From Candidatus Mycolicibacterium alkanivorans (GTDB taxonomy: Bacteria; Actinomycetota; Actinomycetes; Mycobacteriales; Mycobacteriaceae): DNA of 64,000 nt. Of this stretch, positions 8,747-33,428 are shown one piece after another. Both the position numbers and the translations under genes were made by a program. The stretch lies in the NCBI RefSeq assembly GCF_022760805.1, contig NZ_JAIVFL010000001.1, forward strand, positions 62,001 to 126,000, written 5' to 3'. The first letter of the stretch is position 1. Each line of letters starts with the position of its first letter. Under the pieces are notes generated by a model. The model worked only from the letters and a program-made list of their open reading frames with translations, ran no database searches and had not been told where the DNA came from.

Positions 8747-9283
8747 TCAGCTCACGGCGCGGGCCAGCAGCCAGGCCTCGCCGTCGCCCTCCCCCGCGGC
8801 CAGCTGCTCGAGGGCCGCGAACGCCTGCGGCAGTTCGCCGGCGCTCACGCGGAACGGCCCGGGTCGGGCCCCGACTTCACTGAGCGCGCTGATTGCCAGC
8901 AACCCGCCCGGAGCCAACCGCTCGACGATGGCGCGGTCCAACCTGCGGTCGCGAAACTTGTGGCAAACGATGACATCTGCGGGTGGCCCAGCCGGCAGTC
9001 CCTCGTCGAGGTCGGCAACCTCGAAGCGGCACCGGCCGCCAATCCCGTTGGAGGCGGCCAATTCCCGGGCCCGCTCGATCGCCACCGGCGACACGTCGAC
9101 ACCGACAACGTCCAGCCCGCGCAACGCCAGCCACACCGACACACCGCCCTGCCCGCACGCCAGATCGATCGCATGACCTGAAGTCGGGAACGGGTGGTCG
9201 GCGGACACCACGGGTGGCCCGACCTGGGCAGGCCCGCGGTCGGCATAGCGCTCGTCCCAGCGCACACGATCGGTCTCGGCCAC
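8747..9283 (-). CDS. Class I SAM-dependent methyltransferase
   Basis: The 178-residue protein shows the Rossmann methyltransferase motif I DLACGQGGVSVWLA (about residues 40-53), motif II acidic GVDVSP, and the motif IV region ADVIVCHKF. It is shorter than average but covers the whole core. The substrate is unknown; similar small mycobacterial proteins are annotated only as methyltransferase-domain proteins. It is monocistronic and divergent from the cold-shock helicase leader. Confidence 0.82.
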   Translation of the reverse strand: MAETDRVRWDERYADRGPAQVGPPVVSADHPFPTSGHAIDLACGQGGVSVWLALRGLDVVGVDVSPVAIERARELAASNGIGGRCRFEVADLDEGLPAGPPADVIVCHKFRDRRLDRAIVERLAPGGLLAISALSEVGARPGPFRVSAGELPQAFAALEQLAAGEGDGEAWLLARAVS

Positions 9284-9379
9284 GCTCTCACCGTAGTGAC
9301 CGAAATTGTCTGCCGCACCGTTGCCGCTGGACAGGGCGCGTAGAGTGGTACTCGAACCGCCTAATAGTCAGCGGAGATC

Positions 9380-9460
9380 GTGGACACACGCTTTGATGTG
9401 GTGATCCGGTCCCTTCAGGGGCCGCCCACGGTCGATCTTCCAACAAAGGACCCTCTTTGA
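9380..9460 (+). CDS. Leader peptide ORF 1 upstream of the cold-shock helicase
   Basis: A 26-codon frame begins at GTG 9380 with GGAG nearby (spacing only three bases). It ends in TGA at 9458-9460, overlapping the TTG of the next small frame as TTGA. It reads MDTRFDVVIR and onward. Such overlap suggests translational coupling. Too short for certainty. Confidence 0.35.
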   Translation: MDTRFDVVIRSLQGPPTVDLPTKDPL

Positions 9461-9588
9461 ACCTCTTTTCCCACCCGGTGGAAACCGAGCCGACCTCACC
9501 GAAGGACGCGGACTCGGCGCCCGTGGAGAACCCGGTGTTCTCCGACCGCGAAGCGAACCGTCAGCCGAAAAACACTGGCGGACAATAG
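9457..9588 (+). CDS. Small 43-aa ORF in the leader of the cold-shock helicase
   Basis: The frame starts at TTG 9457 with AAGGA six bases upstream, a good ribosome-binding site, and runs to TAG 9586-9588. The product is hydrophilic (MNLFSHPVETEPTSPKDA at the start). It overlaps the preceding small frame by four bases and lies about 280 bases before the helicase start. It could be a real small protein or a leader that regulates the downstream gene. No homologue is recalled. Confidence 0.45.
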   Translation: MNLFSHPVETEPTSPKDADSAPVENPVFSDREANRQPKNTGGQ

Positions 9589-9647
9589 AATTCGGACGCC
9601 GGCCGGGGCCCTCCGTTGTCGCTGTGTGAAATCGGAGATCGACGTGC

Positions 9648-9653
9648 TATGCT
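9648..9653 (+). promoter_or_regulatory. Putative -10 element of the helicase promoter
   Basis: TATGCT lies about 215 bases upstream of the helicase start and would give a 5' untranslated leader of roughly 210 bases. Cold-shock helicases and csp genes often have long structured leaders. The -35 region is weak. A second candidate -10 hexamer (TAGAGT near 9340) would drive the small upstream frames as well. Confidence 0.3.
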
Positions 9654-9869
9654 TCGTGCAACGTTGACGTCCCAAAAGAGCCGCCAACACGTCGTGGAAC
9701 ACCTTCACTTCACCGGCCACCCGGGCCGAGTTCAGTTGATTAAGTGCCCCCGAAGCACAGAGTCTCGCGGCGATCGATTTTGCCCACCGGCAATCTCGCC
9801 AACTTTGTGTTGACCTGCGCCTGACGATCCCGTCGCGAGGACCGGCACACCTGATGCCTGAAAGGCACC

Positions 9870-11156
9870 ATGAACCCCGATAAGACCTTCGCCGACCTCG
9901 GCGTGCCCGCACCACTGGTGCGCGTGCTCACCGACGGCGGCATCACCCATCCATTCCCGATCCAGATCTCGACCCTGCCCGACACCCTGGCTGGACGCGA
10001 CGTGCTGGGCCGGGGCAAGACCGGCAGCGGCAAGACGCTGGCGTTCTCGATTCCCCTGATCAGCAGGCTGGCCAACAGCACGCGGCGCCCGTCACGGCCC
10101 GCCGGTCTGGTGCTGGCCCCCACCCGGGAGCTGGCCACCCAGATCACCGCGGCCCTCGCGCCGCTGGCCGAGGCCTACGGCCTGAAGGTCACCACCATCT
10201 TCGGTGGCGTCCCGCAGCTCAAGCAGGTCCGGGCACTGAAAGCCGGTGCCGACATCGTGGTGGCCTGCCCCGGCCGCCTCGAGGACCTCATGCGCCAGAA
10301 GCTGATCACCCTCGACGGCGTCGAGATCACCGTGATCGACGAGGCCGACCACATGGCGGACCTCGGCTTCCTGCCCGGCGTGACGCGCATCCTGGCGGCC
10401 ACGCCCGCCGGTGGGCAGCGCCTGCTGTTCTCCGCGACGCTGGACAACGGTGTCGACAAGTTGGTCAAGCGGTTCCTGCGCAACGAGGTGTCACACGCCG
10501 TCGATTCCGACACCTCCCCGGTGGACGCGATGACCCATCACGTGTTCCACGTCGCCGGTGTCGAGGCCAAGAACCAGCTGGTACACACGTTGGCTTCGGG
10601 TACCGGGCGCCGCATCCTGTTCCTGCGCACCAAGCACCATGCCCGCAAGCTGGCCAAGCAGCTCAATCAGGCCGGTATTCCGTCGGTGGACCTGCACGGC
10701 AACCTTTCCCAGCCTGCTCGTGACCGCAACCTGGCGGCGTTCACCGCGGGCACGGCGCGGGTCCTGGTGGCCACCGACATCGCCGCGCGCGGTGTGCACG
10801 TCGACGACGTCGAGCTGGTGGTGCACATCGACCCCCCTGCCGAGCACAAGGCCTACTTGCACCGCTCCGGACGCACCGCACGCGCGGGCCGGGCCGGTGA
10901 CGTCGTCACCGTGGTGTTACCCGAGCAGCGCCGCGATACCCAGGCGCTGCTGCGCCGGGCCGGCATCAGCGCCACGCCGCAACAGGTTTCAGCCGACTCC
11001 GAGTCGGTGCGGGCTTTGGTCGGCGAGGTGGCGCCGTATCAGGCGCCGGTCGCCGCACCCGTCACTCCCCCACCCGCAGCGCGCCCCCGCTCGGGCCCGG
11101 CCCGCAGCGGCCGCCCGCGGTCGCGCCGGCCTCGCTCCAGGGTTGGAGCGAAATAG
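9870..11156 (+). CDS. rhlE: DEAD-box RNA helicase, RhlE-like
   Basis: The 428-residue helicase has a Q motif (HPFPIQ near residue 30), Walker A TGSGKT (51-56), PTREL (about 84-88), DEAD (157-160), SAT (188-190) and HRSGRTARAG in the second RecA domain. It ends in a basic Arg/Pro-rich tail that probably binds RNA. It most resembles mycobacterial RhlE (Rv3211). Such helicases unwind RNA in ribosome assembly and mRNA decay, especially in the cold. A long leader precedes it and cspA follows 78 bases later in the same direction, so cold regulation is likely. Confidence 0.88.
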   Translation: MNPDKTFADLGVPAPLVRVLTDGGITHPFPIQISTLPDTLAGRDVLGRGKTGSGKTLAFSIPLISRLANSTRRPSRPAGLVLAPTRELATQITAALAPLAEAYGLKVTTIFGGVPQLKQVRALKAGADIVVACPGRLEDLMRQKLITLDGVEITVIDEADHMADLGFLPGVTRILAATPAGGQRLLFSATLDNGVDKLVKRFLRNEVSHAVDSDTSPVDAMTHHVFHVAGVEAKNQLVHTLASGTGRRILFLRTKHHARKLAKQLNQAGIPSVDLHGNLSQPARDRNLAAFTAGTARVLVATDIAARGVHVDDVELVVHIDPPAEHKAYLHRSGRTARAGRAGDVVTVVLPEQRRDTQALLRRAGISATPQQVSADSESVRALVGEVAPYQAPVAAPVTPPPAARPRSGPARSGRPRSRRPRSRVGAK

Positions 11157-24936: not shown

Positions 24937-25028
24937 CATCGAGTGTCGGTGGGATCCGCCAGACTCGGATGCGGCCGCTAGTCCGCGTAGTCTGCAACTA
25001 CTCGAGTTCCATCGGGAGGAGGTGCGCC

Positions 25029-25601
25029 GTGTCGGAGCTTGCACACCTGCCACGTGGTTTGCTGACCCTAGAGCAGTGGGATGCGCTTGACCTCGACCGG
25101 ACACGACGGTGGGAGCTCAGTGAGGGAACACTCATTCTGTCGCCGCGTCCGCACCCCCGGCATCAGCTCATTTCGAGAAGGCTTACCCGCCTACTCGAAG
25201 ACCACCTGCCGGCTGGGCTCGAGGCGGTTCCGGAGATCGAAGTGACGACGAGCGGGGCCTTTCCGCCGAGTGTTCGTGACCCTGACATCGTTGTGGTTCC
25301 AGATCGCGTGTTCGACCAGCTTCCTGCCCGTGTCGCCGCAGCCGATGTTGTGCTTGTCGTCGAGATCGTATCGGCCGGCTCGCGCGGCACGGACCACGTC
25401 ATGAAGTTGCACGAGTACGCCGAGGCGGGCATCGAGAACTACTGGATCGTCGATCTCGAGGCACCGGCCGACGACCAATTTCTCGCGTATCGGCTCGACG
25501 GCGGAAGCTATCGACGGATCCCGGCTCTCGACGGGGACAGGGTCCGTGTGAACGAGCCGACAGCGCTGGAATTCACGTTGGATATGTTGACGCGTCGCTA
25601 A
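25029..25601 (+). CDS. Uma2-family restriction-endonuclease-fold protein
   Basis: The 190-residue protein has the PD-(D/E)XK-like core of Uma2 proteins: VRDPDIVVV, VVLVVEIVSAGSRGTD and HVMKLHEYAEAGIENYWIVD. Uma2 proteins are abundant in actinobacteria and cyanobacteria; their biological role is unsettled, though they are usually described as endonucleases. GTG 25029 is chosen because GGGAGGAGG lies six bases upstream. It opens the accessory stretch that runs to about 33,000. Confidence 0.85.
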   Translation: MSELAHLPRGLLTLEQWDALDLDRTRRWELSEGTLILSPRPHPRHQLISRRLTRLLEDHLPAGLEAVPEIEVTTSGAFPPSVRDPDIVVVPDRVFDQLPARVAAADVVLVVEIVSAGSRGTDHVMKLHEYAEAGIENYWIVDLEAPADDQFLAYRLDGGSYRRIPALDGDRVRVNEPTALEFTLDMLTRR

Positions 25602-26860: not shown

Positions 26861-27781
26861 CTATAGTCCCCTGTGTGCGGGGACATCGCTCCTCTCGATC
26901 GCCTCCGTCACATGGCCGATCGCACCGAAGACTGCGACCGCCACGGCGCCGGCGACGGCACCGACGAAGCCGAGGGCCACCACCCAGCCCAGCCCGGGTC
27001 GGGCGCTGTCACCGAGGAACACCACGCCGATGATGCCGGGGACTACCGTCTCACCGACGACGAGGGCGGCGGTGGCCCCGTTCACCGAGCCGAGTTGCAG
27101 CGCCACGGTGTGCAGGTAGAAGCCGCCTATCCCGGCGAGGAGGACCGTCCACGACGCTGGGTCGGCCGCCAGAGTCCACGTCTGCAGCGGTTCGAGACCG
27201 TCGGCCACCCGAACGGCGATGGCGAGCATGCCGAACAGCACACCCGCGATCAGTCCGGCCATGACCGCGCCGCGCGACCCGAGGACGCGGATGAGTCCAA
27301 TCCCGCCGAGCAGGATCAGCACCGAGACCGCCAGCACGACCCAGTGCACCAGCCGATCCGGATTCGCGGCGCCGCGCTCACCCGAGCCAAGACCGAGCAC
27401 CAACAGCGACACGATGACCGCAACGATGGCGATCCAATCCCGGGCGTGCAAGCCGATGCCGAGGACCGCGATACCGAGCACGGCGGTGACGACGAGGTTG
27501 GCGCTGATGATCGTCTGCGACAAGAACAGCGGAATCAGCCGGGCCGAGACCGCACTGCCCGCGAAGCCCACGACGTCCAGGACGATGCCGGCGACGAACG
27601 CGGCGGTCAGCGCGGCCCCCACGGTCGAGCGCAGCGTCGGGCCGCCGGTCGCGGTGACATGCCCGGTCGCGCCACGGTCCCGGGCCGCGGTCGCCGATCT
27701 GCGCGCCCCGTAGGCCTGCAGCACCGAGGAGACCCCGTAGGCGACACACGCCAGCAGCGCCGCCGCGACACCGATGATCAT
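26861..27781 (-). CDS. DMT-superfamily (EamA-like) transporter or integral membrane protein
   Basis: The 306-residue protein has about nine to ten transmembrane helices in two similar halves, typical of drug/metabolite transporters. The first half contains SQTIISANLVVTAVLG and the second VVGETVVPGIIGVVFLGD. Substrate is unknown. It shares direction with the exported repeat protein but is separated by 26 bases, so co-transcription is possible. Confidence 0.75.
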   Translation of the reverse strand: MIIGVAAALLACVAYGVSSVLQAYGARRSATAARDRGATGHVTATGGPTLRSTVGAALTAAFVAGIVLDVVGFAGSAVSARLIPLFLSQTIISANLVVTAVLGIAVLGIGLHARDWIAIVAVIVSLLVLGLGSGERGAANPDRLVHWVVLAVSVLILLGGIGLIRVLGSRGAVMAGLIAGVLFGMLAIAVRVADGLEPLQTWTLAADPASWTVLLAGIGGFYLHTVALQLGSVNGATAALVVGETVVPGIIGVVFLGDSARPGLGWVVALGFVGAVAGAVAVAVFGAIGHVTEAIERSDVPAHRGL

Positions 27782-27893: not shown

Positions 27894-28190
27894 TCACGTG
27901 GTTCCAAGCTCGACTCGTTCAAGCCGCAGTCGCATGGCGAAGCCCCGCCGATCGGCGCGCTTTGCCTATGCGTCTGCGACGATCGCATCGAGTGAAATCC
28001 CCTGGCTCCCGGCTAAATCCGCTAGAACCTCGGACACGCCGGCCGCCTCACCGACGACGTCTTGAGTTGACCGGGGCTCGTCGTACAAAGCGGTTCGGTA
28101 GCGCTCTTCATCGAGGGTAATGAAGTGGGGCGTCCCGCCCAATCGCGCGATGATTTCGGCAGCCTTGTCCCGTACGAGCTTGCCCGCCAC
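27894..28190 (-). pseudogene. Broken MazG-like nucleotide pyrophosphohydrolase
   Basis: The frame begins MAGKLVRDKAAEIIARLGG, typical of small phosphoribosyl-ATP/NTP pyrophosphohydrolases. After TALYDE about ten residues that normally hold the EExxE metal site are missing, and the later helix reads GEAAGVSEVL where an acidic residue is expected. A TAG at 27966-27968 interrupts the gene, yet beyond it the same frame continues with the family-like tail AKRADRRGFAMRLRLE to TGA at 27894. Deletion plus nonsense codon indicates a dead gene. Confidence 0.65.
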
Positions 28191-28256
28191 GCTGACCCCC
28201 TAGCCATAATGTCGAGATTGCGGTTCTACAGGCATGCACCGACAGGGGGAAGCGTT

Positions 28257-29342
28257 GTGGCCGACGGCGTCGTCGATCCGTTGCTGCTGGGTCAGCGGGT
28301 CGTCGCGATCCTGGAAACAGGGCTACGAACGGCGACGTACAAGCTGGCGACGTTGATGGCGTTGATAGACCACTGCGTCGAGAACCTCCCCGAGCAGCTT
28401 GACGACGACCTGGCGGTGCCGATTCCCGACCTGGCGCGCCGGGTGCTCGAGGTCTACTGGCGGCAGGTAGTGCCGTTCGACGGGCACGAACTTCGGCAGT
28501 CAACGCAGCCGCGTGCTCGAATTCTGATTGCGGCAAATAACCTCCGGAATGCCGCGGGAACCCAATCACAAAGTCTTGCAATCGAAATCGCAGCCATCCG
28601 CGCTCCGGATACTTATCAACGAGCGATCGATGAGATCACGTTGTGCCTGGCTCAGCAGCCACTCCACCGTCTGCAGCGGCTTCCGGGTTCGGACGCGTCC
28701 GACTGCTTTCTCTACGACGACTCATTCCTGCACGATCACGTGAGCCGGTCGACCTTGCGGGCACACAACGACTCGATAGTCCTCAATCCGGGGGTGGCTC
28801 ATGGATTGGCGCGCCTGGCGGGCTTGCTTAAGCCCGCACTGGAGATCATGTGGGTTGATGACGTGCGCCGGATGAACAAATTCCTGCTCGCCGATCGATT
28901 CCCCGACGTCGCGGGTCACCTCTTTGGTCGGGAGCGGGTCATGCTGAACGCCGTTCGGGAACCATTGAAGGAAGCCTTTGGCCCCCATTGCTTCTACTGC
29001 AATACGCATCTGCCGGCTGGCAATCCGATCGACCATGTGCTGCCGTGGTCGCTGGTGGGGATCGACGGGTTGGCGAACTTGGTCCTGGCGTGCGCACGGT
29101 GCAACAGTGACAAGAGCGGGGCTCTCCCCGCGATCGCGATTGTCGACCGGGTTCTTGAGCGCGACCAAGAGACGTTGGAGGACATTGCTGCCACGATTCA
29201 GTGGCCCACTCAACATCAGAGAGTCGTGGCCGCCGCGCGCGGTATCTATCGAGGGCAGCCAGCGGGTCTACCGACGTGGTCGGGCTACGGAGACACGGTC
29301 CGCTTGGACGTCAGCTTTCCGCCTGCCTGGCTATCAACATGA
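28257..29342 (+). CDS. HNH endonuclease of the accessory island
   Basis: The 361-residue protein has a large N-terminal region of no recognised family and a C-terminal HNH nuclease: zinc cysteines Cys245-x2-Cys248, catalytic IDHVLPW (Asp259-His260), Asn in DGLANLVLAC and Cys279-x2-Cys282 (CARCNSDKSG). GTG 28257 is preferred because GGGGGAAG lies just upstream; ATG 28209 is an alternative. The stop codon abuts the stop of the convergent helicase gene with no gap. The context of helicase plus decayed nucleases suggests anti-phage or plasmid-targeting function. Confidence 0.82.
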   Translation: MADGVVDPLLLGQRVVAILETGLRTATYKLATLMALIDHCVENLPEQLDDDLAVPIPDLARRVLEVYWRQVVPFDGHELRQSTQPRARILIAANNLRNAAGTQSQSLAIEIAAIRAPDTYQRAIDEITLCLAQQPLHRLQRLPGSDASDCFLYDDSFLHDHVSRSTLRAHNDSIVLNPGVAHGLARLAGLLKPALEIMWVDDVRRMNKFLLADRFPDVAGHLFGRERVMLNAVREPLKEAFGPHCFYCNTHLPAGNPIDHVLPWSLVGIDGLANLVLACARCNSDKSGALPAIAIVDRVLERDQETLEDIAATIQWPTQHQRVVAAARGIYRGQPAGLPTWSGYGDTVRLDVSFPPAWLST

Positions 29343-32300
29343 TTAAGCGACTGCGGCCCGCGACGCGATGAACATCTCCATGGGCATCGGTCGACGGAGT
29401 CGCCACGTGATTGCGATCGGTCGGTCCCCCTCGTGCGTGACGTAGTCGGCTGGGCCCAAGAAGAGATACGGCGAAGTGCCAAGAGAATTGGTCTTTGCCT
29501 CGCGGACGAACAGCAGGATGTGCGAGCCGTTCTTCCGGTGATTGATGTATCGCTGCCCGGTCGGTGAAGTTGAGGAGGTTGTCGATTGCGATTCCCAGTG
29601 GAACAGGTCGGGACTAAGCGCGAAATCGCGATACATCGTTGTCGGCGAGTAGTCGGTGTCGCTCTTCTTGAGCGTGATCAAAAACGCGTCGACGTTAAGC
29701 CCGGGGCACCAGGCAACGCCCTCGCGCATGGTGCTAGGGACTCGACCCTGCGATGTCCAGTCGAGCGCGGCCAAGATCTCCTCTCGGGTATAGCTAGCAT
29801 GCAAAGCGAGCGGCACGTCGGCGAGTGCCAGTTCGACTTCGCCCAGAGCTGACGTCGTTCGATGCGCCGCATTAAAACCGATGTCGATGATCTGCCGCAT
29901 TTCCTCAACGACCGGTTCGCCGCTCAAGATTTCTAGACCTGCTGGCGCACTGCCGAAGCCGCCGCCGTTCGGGAACAGGGAATAGAACAGCATCTCGGTG
30001 AGCCGCCGTTCCATAGCGCTTCCGACGGAGAGCTTCTGCCCAAGCATGGCTCGGTAGTTATGCCAGCGGAGTCTGTCATCGACGTGGGCGAGTGCCCGAA
30101 GCCGCTTGACCAAGTCTTGTTCACGTCGACCAGGGCCCACATCGGTCTTACCAGCGTCGCGGCACAACGTAGTCCAAGACTTCCCCGACCGGAGAATATC
30201 TTCGAGCGACCGTCCTGAGGCGTCGAGATAGGAGGCCAGGTCGTCGCCCGGATGTGACCGGACCTCCGCCACTAAGGCGGCCCACTTCGGCGACACCTGC
30301 TGTCTTATGTTCTCCAGGACCAACTCTCGTGCAACGGAATCGAGCACGATCTGGCTGCCCGACGGCAGGAATGGAAAGCCGTCTCTAACTTGCCGTTCCA
30401 ACTCCTTCCGGCTCAGGCCGGTGAGAGCTCGAAAGCGCTGATCGAATCGGAACTCTTTGCGCTGGTGCCCAACGAAATCGAGGGCCGTCAACACCGTCTT
30501 GCCTTCTGTCAAGCGCAAACCTCGTCCCAGTTGTTGCAGGAAGACTGTCGCGCTCTCGGTCGGTCGAAGGAACAGGACGGTGTCTACGTCAGGTATATCG
30601 AGGCCTTCGTTGAAGAGGTCGACCGCGAAGACGATGTTGATTTCCCGTGCCCGGAGTTGAGCCAGAGCATTCTGCCGGTCGAGCGGTGAGGTTTCGGCCG
30701 ACACCGCCCTGGCCTTGATCCCGGCGGCGGCAAACTTCTCTGCCATGTATCGGGCGTGCTCGACGCTGACGCAGAACCCTAGCGCGCGCATTCTGCCGAC
30801 ATCAGCGACCTTGTCACGTAACTCCTTGAGCACGATCCGCGTTCGCGAATCGTTGCCGGTGTAGACGTTGCTAAGTTCAGCGACGTCGTAGCCGCCGCGC
30901 TTCCACTCCAAACCTTCGAGGTCGGTTTGGTCGTGAACACCGAAGTAGTGGAAGGGGCACAGAAGGTTCTGGTCCAGCGCATCCCACAAGCGGAGTTCGG
31001 CAGCTACCCGTCCACCGAAGAGGTCCCGGACGTCGACGCCGTCGCCCCGTTCGGGGGTTGCGGTGAGACCGAGCAGTTCTATTGGCTTGACGTGGTTCAG
31101 CAGTCGCCGATACGACGCAGCCTCGGCGTGGTGGAACTCGTCTACGACGACTACATCGAACTGGTCGGGGGACATCGTTGAGAGCCGGTGCGGGGTGAGC
31201 GACTGAATGCTCGCAAAGACATGCCGCCATTTCACGGGCTGCTCTCCGCCGACAAGCAGTTCGCCAAAGGTTGGGTCGACTAGGACCTCTTGATACATGC
31301 GTCGGGACTGCATCAGGATCTCTTTGCGATGGGCGACGAAAAGTAGGCTCAAATCTCTGCCGCGGATCTCGCGGAGGCTTCGGTAGTCCAGCGCCGCGAT
31401 TACGGTCTTGCCGGTGCCGGTCGCGGCGACAATCAGGTTGCGATGGCGGTCGTGAAGCGACCGCTCGGCATCGAGTTGCTCAAGCATCTCGGCTTGGTAG
31501 GCCTTCGGTTGCACCTCAAGCCCGGACAGCGTGATAGTGATCTGCTCCCGTGCCTGTCTGCCGGCCGCAACGTCGAGTGCCACATCAAGCCGCTGACGAT
31601 CGGTGCTCGGGTGGTAAGGCTCGAATTCCTTGTTCTCCCAATATGAGTCGAAGGTCGACTTGAACTTGTCGAGCATATGAGGGGTCGATTGGGCTGACAA
31701 CCTTACGTTCCATTCGAGACCGTCCACCAACGCCGCGTGGGATAGATTGCTCGATCCGACATAGGCAGTATGGAAGCCGGTGTTGCGGCGCAGCAGCCAC
31801 GCTTTGGCGTGCAGGCGGGTGCGATGCAGTTCGTAGTTGACCCGGACCTCGGCGCCAAACTCATCCACCAAAGCATCAAGCGCGCGCGCATCAGTGGCGC
31901 CGAGATAGGTCGTTGTGATGACTCGTAGCCGAACGTTCCGCTGCCGGATCTCGTTCAGTTGATCTTCAAGCAAGCGCAGGCCCTGCCACTTTACGAACGC
32001 ACAGAGCAGATCGACCTGGTCGGCACTCGCGAGTTCGGCGCGAAGCTCGGCCGCGAGCGTGGGTTCGTGACGCGCGTTGGTCATCAACGCCGTGTCAGAG
32101 AATGGCGTAGCGCGCCGCGGCAGACGCCCGTCCGTAAGCGTCGACACCCGCCGAACTTCATCGAGGCGGGTGACGCGGTGGGGTTCAATCTGATGCAGAA
32201 CCTCCTCAGCTAGGGAAGCCTGCGGTAGGACTCGGAGGATCTGCCGAACTAGATCGAGGCGCGCTTCGGCACTATGGGCTGCCTTCAGCGATCGCTCAAC

Positions 32301-32441
32301 GAGCGGCAAAAGATGGCGCGCAATAACCAGCGCTTGCTCAGCGTCATCGACTGTGCCGTACTCGGCATGCAGGTCGTCTCGTTGTTGGATCTGTGCGAAT
32401 AACCCTTCAGTGAGCAATGATTCGTAGACGCCAAGATCCAT
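29343..32441 (-). CDS. PLD-like nuclease / SF2 helicase / DUF3427 fusion protein
   Basis: The 1,032-residue protein has a phospholipase-D-like nuclease domain (HAK at 211-213 and GSSNLS at 229-234), an SF2 helicase core with Walker A ATGTGKT (about 340-346), DEFH (434-437) and motif VI QQLGRGLRLTEG, and a C-terminal DUF3427 domain (LFHWESQ, GQRYINH, ILLFVRE). Only one HxK motif is present, so PLD activity would need dimerisation. Such fusions occur in defence islands, but I know no established mechanism. One 60-base line inside the gene (29581-29640) is 53% GC, against 68% for a line in gpsA. Start ATG 32441. Confidence 0.85.
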   Translation of the reverse strand: MDLGVYESLLTEGLFAQIQQRDDLHAEYGTVDDAEQALVIARHLLPLVERSLKAAHSAEARLDLVRQILRVLPQASLAEEVLHQIEPHRVTRLDEVRRVSTLTDGRLPRRATPFSDTALMTNARHEPTLAAELRAELASADQVDLLCAFVKWQGLRLLEDQLNEIRQRNVRLRVITTTYLGATDARALDALVDEFGAEVRVNYELHRTRLHAKAWLLRRNTGFHTAYVGSSNLSHAALVDGLEWNVRLSAQSTPHMLDKFKSTFDSYWENKEFEPYHPSTDRQRLDVALDVAAGRQAREQITITLSGLEVQPKAYQAEMLEQLDAERSLHDRHRNLIVAATGTGKTVIAALDYRSLREIRGRDLSLLFVAHRKEILMQSRRMYQEVLVDPTFGELLVGGEQPVKWRHVFASIQSLTPHRLSTMSPDQFDVVVVDEFHHAEAASYRRLLNHVKPIELLGLTATPERGDGVDVRDLFGGRVAAELRLWDALDQNLLCPFHYFGVHDQTDLEGLEWKRGGYDVAELSNVYTGNDSRTRIVLKELRDKVADVGRMRALGFCVSVEHARYMAEKFAAAGIKARAVSAETSPLDRQNALAQLRAREINIVFAVDLFNEGLDIPDVDTVLFLRPTESATVFLQQLGRGLRLTEGKTVLTALDFVGHQRKEFRFDQRFRALTGLSRKELERQVRDGFPFLPSGSQIVLDSVARELVLENIRQQVSPKWAALVAEVRSHPGDDLASYLDASGRSLEDILRSGKSWTTLCRDAGKTDVGPGRREQDLVKRLRALAHVDDRLRWHNYRAMLGQKLSVGSAMERRLTEMLFYSLFPNGGGFGSAPAGLEILSGEPVVEEMRQIIDIGFNAAHRTTSALGEVELALADVPLALHASYTREEILAALDWTSQGRVPSTMREGVAWCPGLNVDAFLITLKKSDTDYSPTTMYRDFALSPDLFHWESQSTTSSTSPTGQRYINHRKNGSHILLFVREAKTNSLGTSPYLFLGPADYVTHEGDRPIAITWRLRRPMPMEMFIASRAAVA

Positions 32442-32514: not shown

Positions 32515-32920
32515 ATGACCGGAAGCTCTCACGCGCGCTGCTCCGCAGCAGCTTAAGTTGCGAATAGAACCGGACGCGGCGCAACTCAATTCCAAGGTCA
32601 CCCGAAAGCAAGGTTCCGAGGGTCTTGCGAAGCGTCGAGCCCTCTGCGTTCCCGTTGTAGTGGTACCTGATGCGTTGACGAATATTCTGGCTGCTAGGCG
32701 GCTTTCCATTGCTCGGTGGCCGCGACGGGCCGATTCCCGCATACAGCAGCGTCAATCCATCGCGACGCTGACAGCCAGCGGTATCGATTGGGCCCGGAAC
32801 TTGCCTGAACCACCAACCGTAGACACCGGCAGATTTTGGAATTGGGCAGGGGCTCGGCGAAGACCTCGTCGCGCGAGTAGCAGGGCGCCGTCAAGAACTG
32901 ACTCTGACCAGGTACGTCCT
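32515..32920 (-). pseudogene. Frameshifted GIY-YIG nuclease-like gene
   Basis: Minus-strand reading gives family-like YSRDEVFAEPLPNSK in one frame (about 32,890-32,845). Near the A-rich AATTCCAAAATC the match shifts to a second frame: SAGVYGWWF, DGLTLLYAGIGPSRPP, NGKPPSSQNIRQRIRYHY and GNAEGSTLRKTLGTLL. The GIY-YIG hallmark (here VYG...YAG) and basic core are present. After GIELRRV the match is lost, so the C-terminal part is deleted or scrambled. The gene lies directly upstream of the helicase and occupies the 546-base gap 32442-32987. Confidence 0.6.
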
Positions 32921-32987: not shown

Positions 32988-33428
32988 CTACCCCGCCGCC
33001 TTCACCAACCTGAACGCAATCTGGGACTGCCCCGGCCGGGTCATCTGGCACACACCTCGTTGGACCGCCGTCAGCTGACCCTCCAGGCTGACCGCGTCCC
33101 ACTGGTAGATCATCGCGCCTTTGGCGTTGGTCTTGTCCGGGCAGACCGGCACCAGGCCCGTGAGCGTCATCACCCAGGTGTTACCGCCCCGGTAGAAGGC
33201 CTGCCCGTCGATCAACGGCGAGTGCACGTCGGACTCACACCCGATGGACACCTCGGAACACTGCGGGGTGATGGTCCAGGTGTCCAGGAGGCTGCTCGGC
33301 CCGACGACGTCGTAGGTTCCGGCCAGCGCCGTGCCCGTCGCGTGGGCTGCCGGCGGGACTGCGAGCACCAAGGAGCCCACCACCGCCCCCACCATTGCGA
33401 CACCGCCGCCGGTCCTCATGTGCGCCAT
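32988..33428 (-). CDS. Secreted mycobacterial protein of unknown function
   Basis: The 146-residue protein has a cleavable signal peptide (LVLAVPPAAHA, about residue 30) and a mature domain of about 115 residues with four cysteines (CSEVSIGC, VCPDK, GVCQM), probably two disulfides. The beta-rich pattern GTYDVVGPSS...WTITPQC is typical of small mycobacterial secreted proteins. Function unknown. ATG 33428 or 33419 may start it. Confidence 0.72.
   Translation of the reverse strand: MAHMRTGGGVAMVGAVVGSLVLAVPPAAHATGTALAGTYDVVGPSSLLDTWTITPQCSEVSIGCESDVHSPLIDGQAFYRGGNTWVMTLTGLVPVCPDKTNAKGAMIYQWDAVSLEGQLTAVQRGVCQMTRPGQSQIAFRLVKAAG

Follow-up and report, generated by a model that had tools for sequence, protein, structure and literature searches.

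Among the described systems, SauUSI most closely resembles the larger of the two genes treated here. In published accounts, SauUSI acts as a single polypeptide with DUF3427 at its C-terminus (PMC3874153), and is built from a PLD nuclease, an SF2 ATPase, a coupler and a target-recognition domain of the SRA fold, with a PLD motif reported as HxK(X)4E and a pocket for flipped 5-methylcytosine formed by Tyr-831, Phe-841, Ile-842, Asp-858 and Trp-868 (PMC7913695). We analyzed a 64,000-nucleotide stretch of Candidatus Mycolicibacterium alkanivorans (contig NZ_JAIVFL010000001.1, positions 62,001 to 126,000; host genome 4.05 Mb), called the window below, in which the gene for an enzyme of this kind, referred to as the helicase, converges with an HNH nuclease gene. 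The initial annotation had proposed that the pair forms an undescribed nuclease-helicase defense module that has lost accessory genes.

We modestly favor reading the locus as a decayed mosaic island, holding a SauUSI-like, type IV-like enzyme and a movable HNH unit that would be additive, each working alone, with no single fixed system. Its domains, kept motifs, recurrent linkage and accessory-gene decay are direct observations. In window coordinates, the features are:

24969-25601: Uma2-family gene (Pfam, E 8.1e-27), 2.7 kb left of the HNH gene
26861-27781, minus strand: membrane-protein-like gene, 306 residues, no Pfam match; left flank of the island
~27909-28253, minus strand: MazG-like (phosphoribosyl-ATP pyrophosphohydrolase-like) remnant, found by tblastn with relatives' proteins, divergent to the HNH gene
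28257-29342, plus strand: HNH nuclease gene, 361 residues, assigned from its open reading frame (ORF), Pfam HNH and the family alignment
29343-32441, minus strand: SauUSI-like PLD nuclease - SF2 translocase - DUF3427 gene, 1032 residues, assigned from Pfam, PADLOC and PDB matches
32573-32851, minus strand: GIY-YIG nuclease remnant with a GIY_YIG_2 match, 132 bp upstream of the helicase on the same strand
32988-33428, minus strand: 146-residue gene, no Pfam match; right flank of the island

The HNH and helicase genes are the two intact genes of the island, and the two remnants lie outside them. As first described, the pair is convergent with exactly abutting stop codons (HNH TGA 29340-29342, helicase TAA 29345-29343). 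Low GC content, previously noted for one part of the helicase gene relative to gpsA, extends to the whole gene (60.3% versus 68.0% in gpsA); the HNH gene has 61.8%, the window 67.7%, and the island parts between the 306- and 146-residue flanking genes 60-63%. The nearby Uma2 nuclease was also confirmed. The decayed toxin-antitoxin pair suggested within a few kilobases was not recovered, as the ORFs tried (six unassigned ORFs and the 146-residue ORF, short of a scan of every frame) gave no Pfam match.

The helicase is described by existing models, and to this extent the claim of an undescribed module does not stand. Its Pfam domains (PLDc_2, ResIII, Helicase_C and DUF3427) place PLD nuclease, SF2 ATPase and C-terminal DUF3427/SRA region in one chain, the arrangement of SauUSI, and the PADLOC mREase_IV model PDLC03659 matched residues 109-1029 at 1066.8 bits. 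The best solved relative was PDB 7clg (E 5.6e-88), an entry titled 'Putative helicase' that we take, from this match, to be SauUSI. Its residues fit the numbering of PMC7913695. Conservation was examined in 37 mycobacterial homologues and in a wider set (34 rows, 30 of them distinct, with 3 also among the 37). H211 and K213 of HxK and S230 and N232 of GSxN were invariant in both (37/37 and 34/34), as were the Walker residues. SauUSI Asp-858 and Trp-868 correspond to D939 and W949, which are unchanged in 37/37 and present in 33/34 of the wider set, with one gap. Reading an 18.6-bit alignment by hand, the window helicase appears to retain the Asp, Trp, Phe and Ile of the pocket. By homology, the SRA-like DUF3427 region would most likely flip a modified cytosine of incoming DNA, after which the SF2 motor would translocate and dimerized N-terminal PLD domains would cut. 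Cleavage by a SauUSI-type enzyme would be confined to modified DNA, use ATP and require two sites. Unlike SauUSI, the helicase has about 90-110 extra N-terminal residues (the alignment starts at 119, versus 31 in SauUSI) and HNH, MazG and GIY-YIG neighbors.

The HNH protein belongs to a separate family, to which the family libraries consulted assign no named function. A C-terminal HNH domain (CxxC, DH, N, CN, K; Pfam E 1.5e-7) follows some 230-240 N-terminal residues without a Pfam or PDB-sequence match, and no named system in Pfam, PADLOC, NCBIfam or PDB was matched past the HNH domain. The start at 28257 agrees with the usual start of the family. C245, C248, D259, H260, N274, C282, N283 and K286, which presumably fill metal-site and catalytic roles, were invariant in 54/54 aligned sequences (window included; relatives 32-84% identical). 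Many N-terminal residues were likewise invariant across the 54, and since both regions are conserved in this way the gene looks intact. The protein probably cuts DNA via its HNH domain, with the N-terminal region picking the target.

Among 36 named loci that carry close relatives of the HNH protein, 35 belong to Mycobacterium, Mycolicibacterium or Mycolicibacter and one to an uncultured actinobacterium. Plasmids outside Actinomycetota carry far relatives (24-31% identity), spread over 22 records; nine of these have one place covering at least 80%, and the lower rows also take in IscB matches confined to the later part. Two known memberships were considered and rejected. Like Septu PtuB, the protein has an HNH domain (E 7.2e-8, residues 277-332 of a 405-residue ORF), but PtuB models match this domain alone, the N-terminal region has no match, and the adjoining gene is a type IV-like helicase and not PtuA. 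Some HNH relatives do lie near an SMC/AAA ATPase gene that shows partial similarity to LmuB and PtuA, as in locus L116. RNA-guided nucleases of the Cas9/IscB type combine a split RuvC with HNH and a guide RNA. Models of these, and PDB sequences of Cas9 and others, matched the HNH region only, with scores well under the NCBIfam cut-offs (27.1 bits against 175 for IscB), in a comparison that did not include a search for a guide RNA.

Lack of co-occurrence across genomes had been set beforehand as one observation that would speak against the pairing. Among 396 genomes of the genus, HNH (E up to 1e-30) was present in 92, some partial, and the helicase (E up to 1e-60) in 72, a count that includes fragments and a divergent longer-protein group. 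Both families occurred in 36 genomes versus 16.7 expected (Fisher p 2.4e-8), a calculation made without a species tree or phylogenetic correction that treats genomes as independent, so that its p-values overstate independence. A stricter helicase set, dropping seven genomes with divergent longer helicases and one with a fragment, gave both families in 32 of 64 versus 14.9 expected (p 2.2e-7) under the same treatment. Thus, the association is non-random. Divergent longer frames (~1300-1400 residues) that match only query residues 129-681, at 39-43%, were seen in genomes G011, G150, G155, G197, G212, G220 and G422.

The association extends to physical linkage. HNH neighborhoods were compared at 81 loci, including the window, from 80 genomes, leaving out 12 genomes with only partial or split HNH matches. 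The helicase lay within 2 kb of HNH in 15 of the 81 (12 convergent, 2 tandem, 1 divergent), counting L173, where only the helicase end reaches the contig edge; these 15 are among the 36 genomes holding both families. As controls, Mrr_cat was found in 65 and HSDR_N in 31 of 80 of the 92 HNH genomes, and neither lay within 2 kb of HNH when coordinates were compared by eye, two Mrr matches (G433 and G226) being ~4-5 kb off. HSDR_N is the better control because much of the Mrr set seems to be a single core gene, and the chance value for neighbors rests on these two families only. In the named set of 36 HNH loci, which partly overlaps the 81, the helicase was within 2 kb in five: M. helveticum, Mycolicibacter longobardus, Mycolicibacter senuensis and two metagenome-assembled genomes, of which one carries a divergently arranged helicase of 44% identity. 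Outside the genus, one of nine genomes with an HNH relative also had the helicase, on another contig. At L121, a 361-residue gene between helicase and HNH (8827-9912) matches PADLOC candidate PDC-S14 with DUF4357.

Several observations weigh against an additive pair built around a SauUSI-type enzyme. The acidic residue of HxK(X)4E is absent from the helicase: its position is R218 in the window, R in 33 and H in 4 of the 37 homologues, and R, H, V, Q or F in the wider 34, with D or E in none. Because of this absence we call the helicase SauUSI-like and not a strict member. The pocket also looks altered, with Tyr-831 replaced by V909 and Met-829 by E907 in a part of the alignment that scores only 18.6 bits, and because of these replacements the choice of base may differ from that of SauUSI. 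The protein thus belongs to a SauUSI-like clade with an altered PLD motif and perhaps an altered base pocket. As for linkage, evolutionary distances of HNH and helicase correlated at r 0.80 in 12 adjacent pairs versus r 0.45 in 13 separated pairs; adding two tandem pairs lowered the adjacent value to 0.52. In all, 14 of the 15 adjacent pairs were used, and 13 of 21 separated genomes, in which the genes lie on different contigs or are separated by ~5 kb or more. The stronger correlation in adjacent pairs leans towards co-inheritance as a unit.

Co-inheritance is what would be expected if HNH and helicase were one system, in which the translocase would locate or bring in DNA for the HNH nuclease to nick or degrade, GIY-YIG and MazG being optional. 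This is a serious rival, if on balance an unlikely one. Besides the distance correlation, it draws on the 15 adjacent loci being scattered on the HNH tree (at least 8 changes in adjacency on a quick 79-row tree in which 31 of 76 inner branches are open, and which missed L129 and L152, both without a helicase within 2 kb) and on HNH being found next to helicases of two groups (72-86% and 43-45% identity to that of the window), whether convergent, tandem or divergent. A shared operon, however, is impossible in 13 of these 15 loci (12 convergent, 1 divergent), and SauUSI acts as a single polypeptide in the account cited above. Speaking further against a fixed pair is the absence of the helicase within 2 kb in 66/81 HNH loci and of HNH within 3 kb in 43/57 helicase loci, both upper bounds, as some regions end at contig edges. 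The single defense unit proposed at first is not borne out by these numbers. We read HNH and helicase as additive, partly co-inherited units, which would function alone and would have been brought together repeatedly because their protection is additive.

Varied HNH surroundings could alternatively mean that the nuclease is a passenger, a semi-selfish mobile element landing in permissive slots, defense islands included, with no role alongside the helicase. In keeping with this, HNH lies on opposite sides of the helicase in the window and in L115, next to the same 146-residue gene. Yet helicase neighbors recur while the two control restriction families never come within 2 kb, and MazG-like, ATPase and GIY-YIG neighbors recur as well. 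A phage or viral origin was also considered and rejected: no HNH match was found in phage records at E 1e-5, and none by six peptide patterns in viral contigs. Finally, among six far-relative plasmid loci viewed (from the 22 records), some adjoin McrBC or methyltransferase genes. Together these make a mere passenger very unlikely.

The same recurrent neighbors raise the idea that HNH is an interchangeable DNA-cutting cartridge, one conserved nuclease that different DNA motors (SauUSI-like PLD helicases, SMC/AAA ATPases and NERD-UvrD helicases) have acquired again and again, and so an effector common to several defense systems; an accompanying hydrolase would set or clear a nucleotide signal or modified nucleotides. 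We regard this broader scheme as rather unlikely. The small hydrolase that it calls for lies beside HNH in some genomes, as a MazG-like gene in mycobacteria and a HIT gene in two plasmid relatives.

On the preferred reading, of a decayed mosaic island, the accessory genes are remnants of partners that each unit keeps in some relatives, and the earlier suggestion of lost accessory genes is supported. The MazG-like remnant is 32-40% identical to relatives (tblastn, E down to 2.7e-16), with in-frame stops and a gap of ~10 residues at the E-E stretch of the relatives; the relative in L116 matched PRA-PH (PF01503) weakly, at 21.1 bits with a cut-off of 21.3. A MazG-like match, always divergent, lay within 300 bp of HNH in 16/81 loci including the window, that is, in 15 of the other 80. 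Stops over this match were absent in 13 of the 16, one in two loci and two in the window. The HNH unit thus adjoins a divergent MazG-like nucleotide hydrolase gene in some relatives.

The helicase has a GIY-YIG partner in some relatives, of which the window keeps a remnant only, 63% identical over 93 residues to a 269-residue relative ORF. GIY-YIG or DUF6884 was found within 3 kb of the helicase in 11/57 helicase loci, remnants counted. Six relatives (L115-L120) have stop-free GIY-YIG genes within 100 bp of the helicase, and that of L115 matches the window remnant in position and strand with respect to the helicase. In L117-L120 a DUF6884-GIY-YIG gene lies between helicase and HNH, its start overlapping the helicase stop in L117, and in L116 a GIY-YIG part lies there. 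The other loci have three stops (L114), a short DUF6884 piece (L161), or a match more than 2 kb off on the opposite strand (L158, L232). The L118 DUF6884-GIY-YIG gene matches PDC-M57A, a DUF6884 candidate without a named function in the PADLOC table, whereas the window gave no DUF6884 match. CMoRE, a GIY-YIG type IV enzyme, likewise ties a GIY-YIG nuclease to modified-cytosine restriction, as the helicase-side GIY-YIG might be tied; the likeness is one of description, and CMoRE is a single protein with its own sensing domain (PMC12923530), unlike the separate GIY-YIG gene of these loci, which is sometimes fused to DUF6884 and is a remnant in the window.

The slot itself, followed on its right by tRNA-Tyr and yajQ (DUF520), is a variable chromosomal site of turnover, because other contents and orders occupy it elsewhere. 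Relatives of both flanking genes enclose a 45% identical helicase in L227 (genome G053), where the slot holds no HNH match. In L115 (genome G355), the order is 146-residue neighbor, HNH, GIY-YIG and helicase, which differs from that of the window. An ORF resembling a PIN-type toxin by eye (L227:8317-8712) follows the alternative helicase of G053.

The helicase is a known kind of enzyme with an altered motif, and for the HNH family and its recurrent partnerships the literature searched shows no earlier description: the titles and abstract openings covered held no description of HNH paired with a SauUSI-like helicase, and a search joining mycobacteria, SauUSI, 5-methylcytosine and restriction returned no paper. 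If our reading is correct, a SauUSI-like enzyme present in 72/396 genomes would be a common, testable barrier to modified foreign DNA in mycobacteria, one that could bear on the poor transformability of some strains. The HNH family (92/396), recurring by several kinds of DNA motor, is a direct lead for phage-defense tests.

Clustering of HNH neighbors at 79 loci also revealed other families. An SMC/AAA ATPase gene lay within 5 kb of HNH in 10 of these loci and a 115-residue family in 7. The ATPase (L116, L120, L134, L139, L141 and five more) is ~830 residues where whole, is often accompanied by the 115-residue gene, and stands beside MazG in several loci. In L127, L128, L184 and L208, a convergent gene of 547-580 residues ends 4 bp from the HNH end; the L208 copy, the sole one tested, has NERD and UvrD-type helicase domains and a PADLOC RTasNERD-Hel match. 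On plasmids, far HNH relatives include L283-L286. The Acinetobacter and Pseudoalteromonas relatives have an overlapping S-adenosylmethionine (SAM)-methyltransferase gene upstream; in Polaromonas and Aromatoleum the upstream gene is of the HIT family, 44 bp away in the former and overlapping in the latter. In Marinomonas (L287), genes for an AAA ATPase, McrC and a type I M subunit stand next to the HNH relative.

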